Shown: piece after piece, positions 1,714-24,516 of the stretch
Numbering within the stretch: position 1 is the stretch's first letter
Layout of the letters: every line of letters begins with the position of its first letter
Virus record (IMG/VR): IMGVR_UViG_3300047319_000185
Location: 1-64,000 of that record
Length of the DNA stretch: 64,000 bases
From: a virus
Reading direction: 5' to 3' (one strand)
Notes under the pieces: generated by a model
The model's database searches: none
What the model was told of the DNA's origin: nothing
The model's input: the letters and a program-made list of their open reading frames with translations, nothing else
Position numbers and translations under genes: made by a program

Positions 1714-2202
1714 CTAAGTGTTGTACTTGTCGTTCCGTCCCTCAAGACTACTACGGGAAGTTCTACGAGTCAACTCTCTGGATACTGCCTTACCACAGGA
1801 TTCTAAGTGGTTATATATAGCCTTAATCTGATCAGCAAAAGACTCAGAAACTATGAGAGCATAGTCCATCTCTTGAACTTCAGGTTCCAGGGCAACCAGA
1901 GCCTTCGTTTCAGAAACAGTCTTCGCTTTCTTTTGAACTGTGTACTTATCTGTAACAGCCTGTAGTTTACGGGTAGACATTCTAACATCAATAACAGCAA
2001 CTGCCACCTGATATCCGGCATACCCGGTCCAGCTAGTAAACTCACTGAGCAATTCCATCAATTCTCGGTCAGGAAGGTCTGCTAATCCTGCCGGAAGTTC
2101 TGGCTGGCCTTCCAATGGTCTCTGAGGTGCTCTCAGTCCCACTTGGTCTAACTTCTGCTGAGGTGTCCCCCAACCGCTCTGCACTGGACTTCTCTGCGCC
2201 AT
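1714..2202 (-). CDS. Hypothetical helical protein next to the Cas4-like nuclease, 162 aa
   Basis: The conserved-looking part begins at ADLPDRELMELLSEFTSW and continues with a helical region rich in Lys, Glu and Ala, ending in a basic tail (RELTRRTSRSSLEGRNDK). An ATG at 2202 gives a 134-base overlap with the nuclease gene. An ATG at 2058 would give 114 aa and leave a 10-base gap, but would cut the ADLPDREL motif. Similar small helical proteins follow Cas4-like exonucleases in other actinophages, and a role as nuclease or recombination partner is a guess from position only. Confidence 0.6.
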   Translation of the reverse strand: MAQRSPVQSGWGTPQQKLDQVGLRAPQRPLEGQPELPAGLADLPDRELMELLSEFTSWTGYAGYQVAVAVIDVRMSTRKLQAVTDKYTVQKKAKTVSETKALVALEPEVQEMDYALIVSESFADQIKAIYNHLESCGKAVSRELTRRTSRSSLEGRNDKYNT

Positions 2203-3052
2203 AACTCTCACAATCTTTACAACTAGAACCAGTAGAACATTCTGGTGGAGACATAGTGTTGTCAAGCGCCCCAATAATGAAATAGGCTTGTGTAAACAAG
2301 CTATCGCAGAAATTAGGATCGAACTTGACTACGAATTCCTTGACTCCCTGGTTGAACTTTGCTTCATAAATGAAGATGATCTGAGTATAGGGAAGTCCCA
2401 TAAGATCACACAGTCGTAGATAAAGCTGTCCCTGACGAAGATGGGAAGGGAAAGGTTCCTTTATATCCTTCCAGAGACCCTGAAGGTCGATCTTCTGACC
2501 ATCTGTATTGGCCTTGTAGATATCAGGTGCCTCTATTCTAACCGTACCAGCACCCACGGACTTAATTTCGATAAGAGCGTCCAGATGTGGAACAGCACCA
2601 TCTGCATGACCTGCAATAAGATACTGTTCTGCCCGCAAAGGAACCTCGGCATATGTATAGCCTACACGGCTCTTGCATGAGGGACAGCGCTCATCATAAT
2701 AGAAATTGTTCTTGACTGTATAGTCGCATTCCATACAGTTCCAGTTACCCCAGAGAACTCCCATGGCTTCCAGTCGGGACTGCCACTTGGTGTGGATCAT
2801 GTGTCCCTCATCAAAGATGTTGAGGAGCTGGACACCTATATTCTCAGGTGCCTTCAGATAGGGGTTGTCTGCCTCTCTGCAAGCCTTGATGCGAAGGTAG
2901 GTACTTCTGGGACACCAGCCTGTCTTGGCCATCTCAGAAGGGTGTATGATGTCCTGTCGTCTATTAGAAGGACGAGAATGTGCCTTTATCATATGCTGCT
3001 GAATACTTCCAAGAAGAATAGTATCCTTTGCTGCATTTGCATAGTTGGCCAT
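2069..3052 (-). CDS. Cas4/RecB-like PD-(D/E)XK exonuclease with iron-sulfur cysteines
   Basis: A nuclease of the PD-(D/E)XK superfamily, probably a DNA-end-processing exonuclease in recombination. The catalytic motif is GHADGAV followed by ALIEIKSV (D then E-x-K). A cysteine near residue 47 (GWCPRS) and a C-terminal cluster (PPECSTGSSCKDC) match the four-cysteine iron-sulfur pattern of Cas4. An extra C-x2-C...C-x2-C ribbon (CMEC...CPSC) is inserted before the catalytic motif. The chosen ATG at 3052 lies 8 bases after the whiB stop. The last 40 residues are low-complexity Ser/Thr/Arg and overlap the next gene. There is no CRISPR context. Confidence 0.85.
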   Translation of the reverse strand: MANYANAAKDTILLGSIQQHMIKAHSRPSNRRQDIIHPSEMAKTGWCPRSTYLRIKACREADNPYLKAPENIGVQLLNIFDEGHMIHTKWQSRLEAMGVLWGNWNCMECDYTVKNNFYYDERCPSCKSRVGYTYAEVPLRAEQYLIAGHADGAVPHLDALIEIKSVGAGTVRIEAPDIYKANTDGQKIDLQGLWKDIKEPFPSHLRQGQLYLRLCDLMGLPYTQIIFIYEAKFNQGVKEFVVKFDPNFCDSLFTQAYFIIGALDNTMSPPECSTGSSCKDCESYGAEKSSAERLGDTSAEVRPSGTESTSETIGRPARTSGRISRPS

Positions 3053-3060
3053 GCGTCCAG

Positions 3061-3399
3061 TTAGTTTCGGTCCCCAGCCACTGCTGATTGCTGCCAAAGC
3101 TTTCGTTCCTTTCTCAGTTTCGCACGTTCTTCCGGACTCATTCCACCCCATACTCCATAGCGCTCATTGTTCGTCATTGCGAACTCCAAGCAGCTTTCCA
3201 GTAAAGGACAGGGCTTTCCGTCATACGTACCTAAGCAAATGTTCTTTGCATCTTCTGTCTCACTATAGTCAGGTTCATCCTCTGAATCCGAATCACTATA
3301 CCAAGGGTCGTTTCCTCTTGTTGCAGGAAAGGACACACACTTGGCCTGTCTATTAGGATCATCGCTGAACCATGCGGGTGCAACACTACGTAGTTTCAT
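3061..3399 (-). CDS. WhiB-family iron-sulfur transcriptional regulator
   Basis: WhiB proteins bind a [4Fe-4S] cluster and act with the principal sigma factor in actinobacteria. Four cysteines (21, 55, 64, 70), the G[VI]WGG turn (GVWGGMS, 82-88) and a basic C-terminal segment (EERAKLRKERKLW) are present. The usual C-x2-C pair is here C-x8-C (ICLGTYDGKPC), a 6-residue insertion, and an acidic loop (SDSDSEDEPDYSETED) precedes it. The start at 3399 (112 aa) is preferred over a longer form and overlaps the nuclease gene upstream by 14 bases. A regulator of host or phage promoters is inferred. Confidence 0.85.
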   Translation of the reverse strand: MKLRSVAPAWFSDDPNRQAKCVSFPATRGNDPWYSDSDSEDEPDYSETEDAKNICLGTYDGKPCPLLESCLEFAMTNNERYGVWGGMSPEERAKLRKERKLWQQSAVAGDRN

Positions 3400-3718
3400 T
3401 ACCACTAAAGCCAACCTTTTCGCGTAGTTCAAGATAGTCATCCTTGGACATGATTACCCAAGAATTACCACTGGTCTTGAACTCTACCATAAAGATCGGA
3501 ATTCGTCCATCCATAAGCGCTTGGTTATAGTTCTTCTCTAGTTCCGCATCCTTTAGTGGGTACGATTTGGCCGAAGTTATCTTTAATTCGAATAGTTCGT
3601 CCTCTGTCCGTACATCACTCTTTCTAATCCATCCATTTCCTGAGCCAGAATTGACAGATCCGCCAAGCTCCTTAGCAAGGCGGATCTCCTGTCTCTGGCT
3701 GTCTTTGGTATCAGCCAT
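3386..3718 (-). CDS. PD-(D/E)XK nuclease, Holliday-junction-resolvase-like
   Basis: A 110-aa protein with the order expected for small archaeal Hjc-like or phage VRR-type nucleases: an N-terminal helix with an acidic residue (RQEIRLAKEL), a Gly/Ser loop (GGSVNSGSGNGWIRKSD), then ELFELKIT (E-x-K) and a later beta strand (IPIFMVEFK). It probably cuts branched recombination intermediates. It sits in a recombination cluster with the Cas4-like nuclease and RecA. AAGGA precedes the ATG. The exact subfamily is uncertain. Confidence 0.7.
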   Translation of the reverse strand: MADTKDSQRQEIRLAKELGGSVNSGSGNGWIRKSDVRTEDELFELKITSAKSYPLKDAELEKNYNQALMDGRIPIFMVEFKTSGNSWVIMSKDDYLELREKVGFSGNETT

Positions 3719-4336: not shown

Positions 4337-4615
4337 TCAGCTGTTGAACCACTTGTATGCAACTGTAATGATTGCGTCAGCATACTTTCGATCAAGTTCC
4401 TGAACCTCAGGGGAAAGATCACCAAAAGGAATCAGTGACTTGTGATCCGGACGAATCGGGTTCTTCCATACGGACCAGGCATCATGCACATCCCTCAGCG
4501 TGGTATTCACACCCTGAACCAGAACCAGCAGAGAATACAGATCAAGAAGATCCTCATCAATTCCTGGTAGTTCCTTCCGTAGCATATCCCGTACCTGGTT
4601 TACATAGTTAGTCAC
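4337..4615 (-). CDS. Hypothetical protein, 92 aa
   Basis: Starts with GTG in a GTGA overlap with the RNA ligase stop. The sequence is mostly helical (MLRKELPGIDEDLLDLYSLL; SPEVQELDRKYADAIITV) with a W-x2-W pair in the middle (AWSVWKNP). This type of about 90-residue protein is common in actinophages, but no function is known to me. Confidence 0.65.
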   Translation of the reverse strand: MTNYVNQVRDMLRKELPGIDEDLLDLYSLLVLVQGVNTTLRDVHDAWSVWKNPIRPDHKSLIPFGDLSPEVQELDRKYADAIITVAYKWFNS

Positions 4616-5223
4616 TTAACAGCCTCCCACTTGTGAATGGTGTCGCCCTCTAAAAGGACCTTGTAGCTTGCGTTCAGCTCCCGAAGGTACACTACCATGC
4701 CCTCTGCCTTCCAGCCAAGCATAGCCTTTGAGCCGTGCTTGGTCAAGTCATCCCGAAGTGCAGGTAGATCAAGATCATAGAATGATCCAGCAAACAGAGT
4801 AGGAACGATGTACAGATTGGGAACAGTAGAGAGTGCCTCAGTAGGATGAAGGATCTCGTTCCAACGAGGGGCATTGAAGAGACTGAATCGCTTCTCTTTC
4901 AGACCATACCCGCGCTGAATTCCAGAACCCCACCACTCACCGTAATGGTCACCAGGACCAAGGATGTCAATAAGTTCTGCCGCATTCTCGTCAACCCACT
5001 TAGCAAATCCGAAATTGTCACCTTGCTTGGTCGGCTGAAGGAAACGACTACGAGATTGCGCCCATACCACGTATCCATCTAGGATACCCAGACAATCAGT
5101 GCGGTCGATCTCATCATATGCTGGACGAATACGAATACAGGAATTGGAACCATCAATCTTCTCAGTGACAGTTGCACGCTCCTTGCTCATGCGTGGGATA
5201 CTGGGCCACTTCTGAAATTCCAT
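4612..5223 (-). CDS. RNA ligase (Rnl2-like nucleotidyltransferase core)
   Basis: Joins RNA ends by way of an enzyme-AMP intermediate. Motif I is TEKIDGSN with the nucleotidyl lysine at K22; further motifs are SRSRF near 58, YGEWWGSGIQRGYG near 95 (motif III region), EGMVVYL (motif IV) and YKVLLEG (motif V). At 203 aa it is the catalytic core only: T4 Rnl2 has about 330 residues, so the C-terminal RNA-binding domain is missing or very reduced. Together with the polynucleotide kinase at 23611-24516 it would form an RNA repair pathway. DNA ligase is less likely because no OB domain follows. Confidence 0.85.
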   Translation of the reverse strand: MEFQKWPSIPRMSKERATVTEKIDGSNSCIRIRPAYDEIDRTDCLGILDGYVVWAQSRSRFLQPTKQGDNFGFAKWVDENAAELIDILGPGDHYGEWWGSGIQRGYGLKEKRFSLFNAPRWNEILHPTEALSTVPNLYIVPTLFAGSFYDLDLPALRDDLTKHGSKAMLGWKAEGMVVYLRELNASYKVLLEGDTIHKWEAVK

Positions 5224-5443: not shown

Positions 5444-5833
5444 TTACTGTGGTGTCAAGTATGGTGCCAGAATCACTGTAAGATCAGCAGTTGATCCCAG
5501 AGTGTGGGGAATCTGTACACCCTTTGTTGTTCTGGTCAGATTGGTGATGCGTTCTTCAACAATATAAGTGAAGCCTTGTGGAAACAGCTCAGTATTGTCT
5601 GTGCAAGGCAGAGTAATGCTGAATGTTCCTGGACCACTGCTGTTAGGAGATCCTCCCAGAGTTCCAGGAAGTACAGCTTCTATTGGAGGAACTGTCAGGA
5701 ATTGTGCGTCGACTCCATCTGACAGAACAGGGAGAGACGGAATGAATGTAACTGTACCCGTCTCTCCTGCTCCAGAGATAAAGTTTATGTACCGACCAGT
5801 AACCACAATAGTTCTTGCGCCTGTTATGCTCAT
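5444..5833 (-). CDS. Beta-rich structural-like protein, 129 aa
   Basis: Looks like an N-terminal tail-fibre or tail-attachment domain: many beta strands, Pro, Gly and Thr (ISGAGETGTVTFIP; FTYIVEERITNLTRTTKGVQIP). It resembles the start of fibre proteins of actinophages, but it stands alone among replication genes, followed upstream by an HNH endonuclease gene whose stop overlaps its ATG. It may be a displaced virion gene or a passenger that moved with the endonuclease. The structural role is an inference from composition. Confidence 0.6.
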   Translation of the reverse strand: MSITGARTIVVTGRYINFISGAGETGTVTFIPSLPVLSDGVDAQFLTVPPIEAVLPGTLGGSPNSSGPGTFSITLPCTDNTELFPQGFTYIVEERITNLTRTTKGVQIPHTLGSTADLTVILAPYLTPQ

Positions 5834-6333
5834 GCTTTTCTCTTCTCTAAAAACTCTCCGAGCCAGCTCGTTACAGCATTTAACTCAGCGTATGAATATT
5901 TATCTTTAATAATATTAGCTCTTAAACTAATAACTGCAATGTTACCTGGAATATAGCCTAGCTCAGGTATTACCTTATCCAGGGATGGTGAACTGTCTCC
6001 CTGTTTGCCCTCGTTATGCCGCAGTTTTATGCCTAAAATAGGACATGTTTTTGGAACTATAATATCGGACACAGCTATAGTGAAAGGTGTACCTTCCCTT
6101 GTGGCTCTCTGCTTAGCAGATTTGTAAAGTCTAAGCTCTGAAGACATTTCCCTATGCCGCTTTACCGCTTCAGGGCGGGCGCAGTACTTACATCTACTGG
6201 CCCGCCCAAAAGGAGCACCAAGCCGCTTATGAAATTCTTCAAGAGATTTTATATCTTTACAGCCAGTACATTTTCTGTAACCATCTGGCCATGAATCAAA
6301 CTCTTCTTGAGAAAAGACAAAACGATTAGGCAT
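5830..6333 (-). CDS. HNH-type homing endonuclease-like protein, 167 aa
   Basis: The N-terminus carries a zinc-ribbon-like CTGC...CKYC (residues about 22-56). The C-terminal half contains a segment typical of free-standing phage HNH endonucleases: KSAKQRATREGTPF, then CPILGIKL, then PSLDKVIPELGYIPGNIAVISLRAN. It would cut a DNA site in an allele lacking the gene. It lies between recA and the fibre-like gene at 5444, a usual place for selfish endonucleases. Whether it is active cannot be told. Confidence 0.75.
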   Translation of the reverse strand: MPNRFVFSQEEFDSWPDGYRKCTGCKDIKSLEEFHKRLGAPFGRASRCKYCARPEAVKRHREMSSELRLYKSAKQRATREGTPFTIAVSDIIVPKTCPILGIKLRHNEGKQGDSSPSLDKVIPELGYIPGNIAVISLRANIIKDKYSYAELNAVTSWLGEFLEKRKA

Positions 6334-6336
6334 AGA

Positions 6337-7389
6337 CTAGTCCTTTGCGGTAGCTCTTTCAAGAGTCGCATCAGCGATCTCTTTCTGTAGCTCAATGTTA
6401 CCGCGAAGGTCTTCCACCATTGAATCTCTACCCTGCCACTTGAACTCTTCGTTGTCAAGTGAGGTGTAGTTGAACCATGCGCCTGCTCTCCTGATGACCT
6501 TGAATACAACAGCCATGGTGATAGTATCACGAAGCATGTCATAGTCACCAGGCTTGAATCCCTTGGCACTGTTCTCAAAGTACATGTCAGCAACAGCAGT
6601 CTTCTGTGGTGCCCCAGCCTTGTTCTTGGTGATCAAGTACTTGACTGTCTGTCCTACCTTGACCTTGCCCAGACCATCAACAGACTCTTCAATCCAGTCA
6701 TCTCTGCCGATCTTCACACGCTGGTAGAACTGATAGTTCTTTGCCTTTCCACCAGGCTCCGTAGTAGGGGTTCCGTAAGGGGAAAAGCCACCGATCTTAT
6801 CGCGGAACTGATTGATGAAGAATCCTACGTAAGGACGGTCATCACTATAGGTATCAGGAATCTTACGGAAGAACTGTCCTACTCGTCTTGCTCCGCCACC
6901 AACAGTAAATCCGTCCATTTCCTTATCCGATTCATCACTTGCAATCAGCGCAGGATATGAATCAAGAACAATGGCATCAAAGACATTCTCACGTCCTGCA
7001 TCAAGGATCTCCTGAAAACAGAGTTCCATATTGTTGTGCTCGAATACTTCTACTCTGTTGTTGTCAACACCATGAGCTTCTGCCCATTCAGGGTTGTAGG
7101 GTTCAGATGCTACCCAGAATGCAGAATAGTTCTTGTCCTTCGCCTGATTGACTGCAATAGTATGCAGAACAGTCGTAGTCTTGCTGGCACTGGATTCCCC
7201 GACTATCTCAATCCATCTGTTAGTAGGCCAACCTCCACCTAAAGCCACATCTAGAGACAGAATTCCAGAAGTCTGGCGTGGTGGAACATAGATTTCACTG
7301 GCACTGATAAGAGGCTTCAAGCCCTTCTTTACAAGAGCCTTGTTCTGCTTTTCCCTGAATAACTTTAACTTCTGTGCCTGGTCTTCCAT
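6337..7389 (-). CDS. recA: RecA-like recombinase
   Basis: Strand-exchange ATPase for recombination and recombination-dependent replication. Walker A is GESSASKTT at residues 64-72 and the Walker B region is AIVLDSYPALIA. A glutamine in FINQFRDKIG followed by GTPTTEPGGKAKNYQFYQRVKI matches the RecA L2 and core region. At 350 aa it is near bacterial RecA in length but has divergent loops. The start is preceded by GGGAG, and a perfect hairpin (7408-7446) sits just upstream. Confidence 0.9.
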   Translation of the reverse strand: MEDQAQKLKLFREKQNKALVKKGLKPLISASEIYVPPRQTSGILSLDVALGGGWPTNRWIEIVGESSASKTTTVLHTIAVNQAKDKNYSAFWVASEPYNPEWAEAHGVDNNRVEVFEHNNMELCFQEILDAGRENVFDAIVLDSYPALIASDESDKEMDGFTVGGGARRVGQFFRKIPDTYSDDRPYVGFFINQFRDKIGGFSPYGTPTTEPGGKAKNYQFYQRVKIGRDDWIEESVDGLGKVKVGQTVKYLITKNKAGAPQKTAVADMYFENSAKGFKPGDYDMLRDTITMAVVFKVIRRAGAWFNYTSLDNEEFKWQGRDSMVEDLRGNIELQKEIADATLERATAKD

Positions 7390-23610: not shown

Positions 23611-24516
23611 CTAGAAGTCTCCGTCTGCAACTTGCAGTACACGAATTCGCAGCTTACGAAGACGACGTACAACACGGTCCCTGTCATCGAACCAGGCCAG
23701 GATATTGTACTTACCACGAATGTACTTGTCCACCATGTACTGCTTCACATCAGCATCGTTCCAGTCCTTCTGGTCGATACCGTCACGCATGTAGAATTCC
23801 TGGAACCGGATGTGATGAATAGCATTCCATTCCTCAGTATCCGCGCGGCAAGTATCAGGGCGACCAGACATTCCAAAATGGGGAGCCCGTGGCAGACCGT
23901 CCTCAATAATATCCTTAAGACGAACGATATCTGCATGAGGTGCGTCAGTCAGGACACGACTGTAGTCATAGGGAGACCGAGCAACATGCTTGGCAGTGGT
24001 TCCATCAGTGTCCCAGACAACACAGAACGGAAGATCAGGATCAAACTCAAGAGGAGCTGACAGGACAACATCGTTCATCCACTCAGGAGTCAGCTTCCAC
24101 TTACCAATCCGCGTAGCCATCTTACGGATAACTGCCTCACCAACAGAACGCTCTCCATCAATTGCACGCCTCCAGTCATTGGTGATGCAGTCCTCAGTAG
24201 TAACATGGCTGAAATCCTGGACCTTGAACAGTACATCACCATCAAAGAGACGCTTGATACGCTTAGGCATGTTCTTCTCAATGTGAGTGTTGTCCACGAT
24301 CACATCCTTGCCCGCCTTTACAGCAGCAAGAATAGCCTTGTCCTGGATATCAAGAGCAATAGCCTCAGCATCCTTACTGAATGGAAGCCCAACCATTGCA
24401 CGGATGTCATCCATATTCACACGCACAATCTGACCATCGGAATCAGCTACCTGCTGCTTGGCCCAGGTACTCTTGCCACTAGCGGGCAATCCGCGACAAA
24501 GTGTAATCGTAGTCAC
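23611..24516 (-). CDS. Polynucleotide kinase-phosphatase (T4 Pnkp-like)
   Basis: Prepares RNA or DNA ends: it adds 5' phosphate and removes 3' phosphate. The kinase domain has P-loop GLPASGKST (9-17). The phosphatase domain carries DTDGTT (169-174) in the place of the HAD D-x-D-G-T motif, and a later MSGRPDTCRADTEEW segment. At 301 aa it matches the T4 enzyme in length and domain order. With the RNA ligase (4612-5223) it would repair RNAs cut by host anticodon nucleases. Confidence 0.9.
   Translation of the reverse strand: MTTITLCRGLPASGKSTWAKQQVADSDGQIVRVNMDDIRAMVGLPFSKDAEAIALDIQDKAILAAVKAGKDVIVDNTHIEKNMPKRIKRLFDGDVLFKVQDFSHVTTEDCITNDWRRAIDGERSVGEAVIRKMATRIGKWKLTPEWMNDVVLSAPLEFDPDLPFCVVWDTDGTTAKHVARSPYDYSRVLTDAPHADIVRLKDIIEDGLPRAPHFGMSGRPDTCRADTEEWNAIHHIRFQEFYMRDGIDQKDWNDADVKQYMVDKYIRGKYNILAWFDDRDRVVRRLRKLRIRVLQVADGDF

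Follow-up and report, generated by a model that had tools for sequence, protein, structure and literature searches.

We believe that the short RNA ligase encoded at positions 4612..5223 (minus strand) is probably a stand-alone Rnl2-type enzyme, one that operates apart from the other RNA-repair genes of the phage and would seal RNA breaks bearing 5'-P and 3'-OH ends without a polynucleotide 5'-kinase / 3'-phosphatase (Pnkp). Two other genes most likely supply the T4-like heal-and-seal pair, Pnkp at 23611..24516 (minus strand) and a T4 Rnl1-type RNA ligase at positions 66198-67250 of the record (minus strand), just outside the window, by which we mean the whole stretch of DNA analyzed, namely the first 64,000 bases of a Streptomyces-phage-like virus record 112,630 b long. 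We draw this pairing from the co-occurrence of the genes across 51 records, from the adjacency of Pnkp and Rnl1 where it is found, and from the majority of short-ligase carriers that lack Pnkp altogether. The source phage is actinobacterial, and the short ligase is probably not a dedicated Pnkp partner; it belongs to a widespread phage family inherited separately from Pnkp. These results correct the pairing proposed in a preliminary description of the sequence, and they set a common phage family of core-only ligases apart from the T4 anti-PrrC model.

The short ligase is, on the evidence of its sequence, a core-only relative of Rnl2 and not a full Rnl2, an assignment that draws on profile, model and structure matches. 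Its 203-residue open reading frame, with a GGAGG ribosome-binding site 5' of the ATG, matches phrog_548 RNA ligase (E=4.8e-27) and scores 37.1 bits against the PF09414 RNA_ligase profile (cut-off 27), covering positions 4-156 of 171. Motifs I (K22-I-D-G-S-N), Ia (S57-R58), III (G95-E96-W97), IIIa (F113/F116), IV (E174-G175) and V (K188) are all present, and K22, D24, G25, S57, R58, G95, E96, W97, F113, F116, E174, G175 and K188 are identical in 81 of 81 aligned homologues, a diverse set most of which are ~40-50% identical to the short ligase. The predicted AMP-accepting residue is K22, which aligns with the motif I KxxG of T4 Rnl2 and whose codon lies at 5158..5160 (minus strand). The chain ends 15 residues beyond K188, with no domain following motif V, and because the 183 homologous loci are similarly compact (mostly 175-235 aa), this core-only form is a family trait rather than a local truncation. 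The preliminary description had recognized a 203-residue ligase lacking the usual C-terminal domain, and the two family profiles, the motifs and the homologue lengths all agree with it. It had also listed motifs I, III, IV and V as present, which needs only the small correction that motif V carries a single lysine where T4 Rnl2 has two. No second lysine is conserved two residues to either side of K188 in the 81-sequence alignment, and K188 could correspond to either K225 or K227 of T4 Rnl2.

The nearest structural relatives of the short ligase are nick-sealing RNA ligases. An AlphaFold2 model reached a pLDDT of 96.4 (a fold computed without an alignment, at pLDDT 35, was unusable), and a Foldseek search with this model placed NgrRnl, T4 Rnl2 and TbREL1, from Naegleria, T4 and Trypanosoma, nearest at E~1e-5, with archaeal RNA ligases at ~1e-3, T4 Rnl1 at 1e-2 and T4 DNA ligase at 4e-2 further off. 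The family profile likewise finds T4 Rnl2 (E=7.4e-6), while a PDB search with the single sequence returned a chance match only. With T4 Rnl2, and with its 1-249 truncation Rnl2tr (1s68), the short ligase has the nucleotidyltransferase fold and the order of motifs in common; it differs in its low identity, in its length of ~200 aa, and in naturally lacking a counterpart to the C-terminal domain, which in T4 Rnl2 follows the nucleotidyltransferase domain (residues 1-234), spans residues 244-329 and sets substrate specificity (PMC4599027). The best single match, NgrRnl (Rnl5; 5cot, 6vte) of Naegleria gruberi (E=1.1e-5), is ~340 aa long and has an additional domain that the short ligase lacks. In length it falls in the same class as DpRNL of Diplonema papillatum, a compact 203-residue Rnl2 that also has one conserved motif V lysine with changed flanking positions (PMC4599027); DpRNL is eukaryotic and retains a small C-terminal region, however, and the likeness is one of length and motif V, with no claim of orthology. 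Closer relatives are found among the actinophages, where PHROG 548 'RNA ligase' is the same family: BRock gp77, LuckySocke gp149 and Jeffabunny gp48 are 44-49% identical to the short ligase over its whole length, which is no more than ordinary divergence. The family as a whole spans phages of actinobacteria, Caulobacter, Rhizobium and Vibrio. Our literature searches turned up no biochemistry on these core-only phage ligases, a family that, as far as those searches show, is annotated yet apparently uncharacterized, and PADLOC matched the short ligase to no defense system.

A split ligase, in which the missing C-terminal domain would be encoded by the 92-aa open reading frame of no assigned function that overlaps the ligase stop codon (4337..4615, minus strand), was considered and rejected, because no conserved reading frame lies downstream of the other short ligases and because relatives of this one, present in 44 Streptomyces phages, occur in phages (Faust, NootNoot and their kin, among those listed) that are not among the listed ligase matches.

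The genes around the short ligase, most of which serve DNA replication or recombination, keep a DNA-side role in play as a candidate. On one side lie an HNH / endonuclease VII-like nuclease (5830..6333, minus strand; phrog_3322, E=4.6e-29) and, further upstream, a UvsX/RecA-like recombinase (6337..7389, minus strand; phrog_97, E=2.2e-49); on the other lie a Holliday junction resolvase (3386..3718, minus strand; phrog_2002, E=5.3e-26), a WhiB gene and a Cas4/RecB-like exonuclease (2069..3151, minus strand; phrog_2506, E=1.6e-44). The same gene order is found in LuckySocke, recombinase neighbor included, and broadly in BRock. Across 139 non-redundant loci, the recurrent neighbors of the family are DNA polymerase A (the commonest, at 37 loci), dNMP kinase, ribonucleotide reductase, ThyX, recombination directionality factor and PD-(D/E)XK exonucleases, the last of which lie within three genes of the ligase in 11 of the 16 loci where they occur (p=4e-4). 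One could therefore suppose that the short ligase seals nicks or RNA-DNA junctions during phage replication or recombination and that its RNA-ligase name reflects ancestry, and the absence of an ATP-dependent DNA ligase from 47 of the 51 short-ligase carriers (it is present in 4) would agree. Nonetheless, the fold is closer to RNA ligases than to DNA ligases, CcrBL9 and RHph_X66 carry the short ligase alongside ATP-dependent DNA ligases, and many phages rely on the NAD-dependent ligase of the host. In Rhodococcus phage Peregrin (L029:8001-10047), moreover, the short ligase is surrounded by tRNA genes and RtcB is two genes away, so that its company there is that of RNA repair instead of the DNA genes usual for the family. 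On balance we consider a DNA-side role unlikely, while acknowledging that the neighborhood fits it too, and that this and the single motif V lysine count against a stand-alone RNA ligase. Two genes upstream of the short ligase, a 129-aa protein (5444-5833, minus strand) that is ~70% identical across related 110-kb phages has a weak tail-fiber-like profile match, though it is located among early genes.

The components of a T4-like tRNA repair system are all found elsewhere in the genome. Pnkp, at 301 aa, joins a P-loop kinase and a HAD phosphatase in one chain (AAA_33, E=4.4e-12; HAD_PNKP, E=2.5e-29), aligns with T4 Pnkp (1ltq) over almost its full length, and retains GLPASGKS, DDIR and DTDGT, so that both GxxxxGK[ST] and DxDGT are present; the full T4-like kinase-phosphatase reported previously at this position is fully borne out. 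The Rnl1-type ligase scores 58.1 bits against PF09511 (cut-off 28.3), matches T4 Rnl1 (2c5u, E=5.2e-9) and has the KxDGS and KxK motifs, although it falls below the T4 RnlA equivalog cut-off of TIGR02308 (58.5 vs 242). Directly beside it are 30 tRNA genes, whereas the window itself has none; ligase and cluster together occupy record positions 66198-78321 (L014:6198-18321), and the tRNAs, all on the minus strand, cover most amino acids. Both enzyme types of the T4 system are thus present, together with 30 tRNA genes; unlike in T4, the two genes here are 42 kb apart, and the short ligase is an extra to the system. BRock and LuckySocke have the same three-gene layout, with short ligase, Pnkp and Rnl1 all separate, and in BRock the Rnl1 gene likewise borders the tRNA cluster. 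An RlaP-type nucleotidyltransferase adjoins Pnkp in both BRock (L018:3209-4939) and LuckySocke (L020:578-2308); no RlaP match was found in the present phage, though Pnkp is there.

The distribution of these genes indicates which ligase Pnkp accompanies. Among 51 records with a short ligase, some of them perhaps fragments, Pnkp (PF25109) is present in 15 and Rnl1 (PF09511) in 14; the two occur together in 13, Pnkp alone in 2, Rnl1 alone in 1 and neither in 35. A Fisher test gives p=2.9e-9 for this association, with the caveat that relatedness is ignored and that 6 of the 13 shared records come from one phage group. Pnkp is missing from 36 of the 51, including the complete isolates phiMiGM15, RemusLoopin, P318, RHph_X66, Peregrin and Tucker, and a search with phrog_505, the full-length kinase family, revealed no full Pnkp beyond the PF25109 set and one further record with a kinase-domain match only. 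Where ligase and kinase are close together, the ligase is Rnl1: the two genes lie within ~3 kb in four genomes (G013, G017, G029, G030), and in Arthrobacter phage Seahorse Rnl1 overlaps a Pnkp-like gene while the short ligase stands apart, between ExoVIII and SSB. The number of tRNA genes per carrier also tracks Pnkp/Rnl1 and not the short ligase (median 27.5 with Pnkp/Rnl1 vs 1 in the rest, p=6e-5, with genome size as a confounder).

We therefore find it quite improbable that the T4-like tRNA repair pair consists of Pnkp and the short ligase, as had been proposed. Both are encoded in this genome, both are of RNA-repair type, and surveys of jumbo phages report a general congruence between kinases and ATP-grasp RNA ligases (PMC7824862); but the same genome has a T4 Rnl1-type ligase, Pnkp follows Rnl1 rather than the short ligase, and most short-ligase carriers manage without Pnkp. 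The related suggestion, that the phage faces a host anticodon nuclease or another RNA-cutting defense, remains plausible by way of Pnkp, Rnl1 and the 30 tRNAs; the short ligase gives no ground for it. Nor does another healing partner for the short ligase emerge. RtcB occurs in 5 of the 51 carriers and RlaP in 7, all but two of which also have Pnkp and Rnl1, and since both are so rarely found and are absent from this phage, we rejected each as a partner; a metallophosphoesterase, found within three genes of the ligase in 6 of 10 loci, was too weak a candidate to support a claim. In all, 30 of the 51 carriers lack Pnkp, Rnl1, RtcB and RlaP alike. The idea that the short ligase has lost ligation and survives as a degenerate or regulatory Rnl2 remnant, as its missing C-terminal domain and single motif V lysine might imply, seems to us highly improbable given that the catalytic residues are fully conserved across 81 sequences, most of them only ~40-50% identical to it, and that the family extends over phages of such varied hosts.

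We return, then, to the stand-alone RNA ligase as the preferred reading. By homology, the short ligase would undergo ATP-dependent self-adenylylation on K22 and would ligate 5'-phosphate and 3'-OH RNA ends. Because most carriers lack a healing enzyme, the distribution suggests substrates that need no healing, that is, RNA breaks that already have 5'-P and 3'-OH ends and would require no Pnkp, for example those that AriB and other metal-dependent tRNases, or PIN-domain toxins, might make. AriB of the PARIS system cuts tRNA to leave 5'-P and 3'-OH ends (PMC12409363); the PrrC cut leaves a 2',3'-cyclic phosphate and a 5'-OH, which in T4 are healed by Pnkp before Rnl1 seals the break (PMC3400036). 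A core of this kind is able to attach adenylated donors to the 3' end of RNA, an activity that Rnl2tr, the truncated T4 Rnl2, retains (PMC3149579). At the same time, the core by itself may not seal nicks efficiently, because T4 Rnl2 binds its substrate through the C-terminal domain. A division of labor among ligases would have precedent in the jumbo phages, where the multiple RNA ligases of a single phage have been argued to have specialized roles (PMC7824862).

A more specific model, which we put forward tentatively and as a possibility only, is that the mainly actinophage core-only ligases, unaccompanied by end-healing enzymes, directly reverse the tRNA cuts made by metal-dependent defense nucleases (PARIS AriB-like enzymes or PIN-domain toxins), and so constitute a second RNA-repair arm parallel to Pnkp and Rnl1. 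Our analysis tied no known defense nuclease or target to the short ligase. If it is true that short ligases act alone on 5'-P/3'-OH RNA, they would be candidate counter-defense genes against metal-dependent tRNases, and they would also be of interest as compact ligation tools.

The core-only ligase is found in cells as well as in phages. Four Herpetosiphon genomes encode it (L165, L168, L175, L180), and on the Herpetosiphon aurantiacus chromosome (L165:7992-8528) it adjoins an HSP90 (htpG)-like gene, an arrangement by which the family may have a cellular role.
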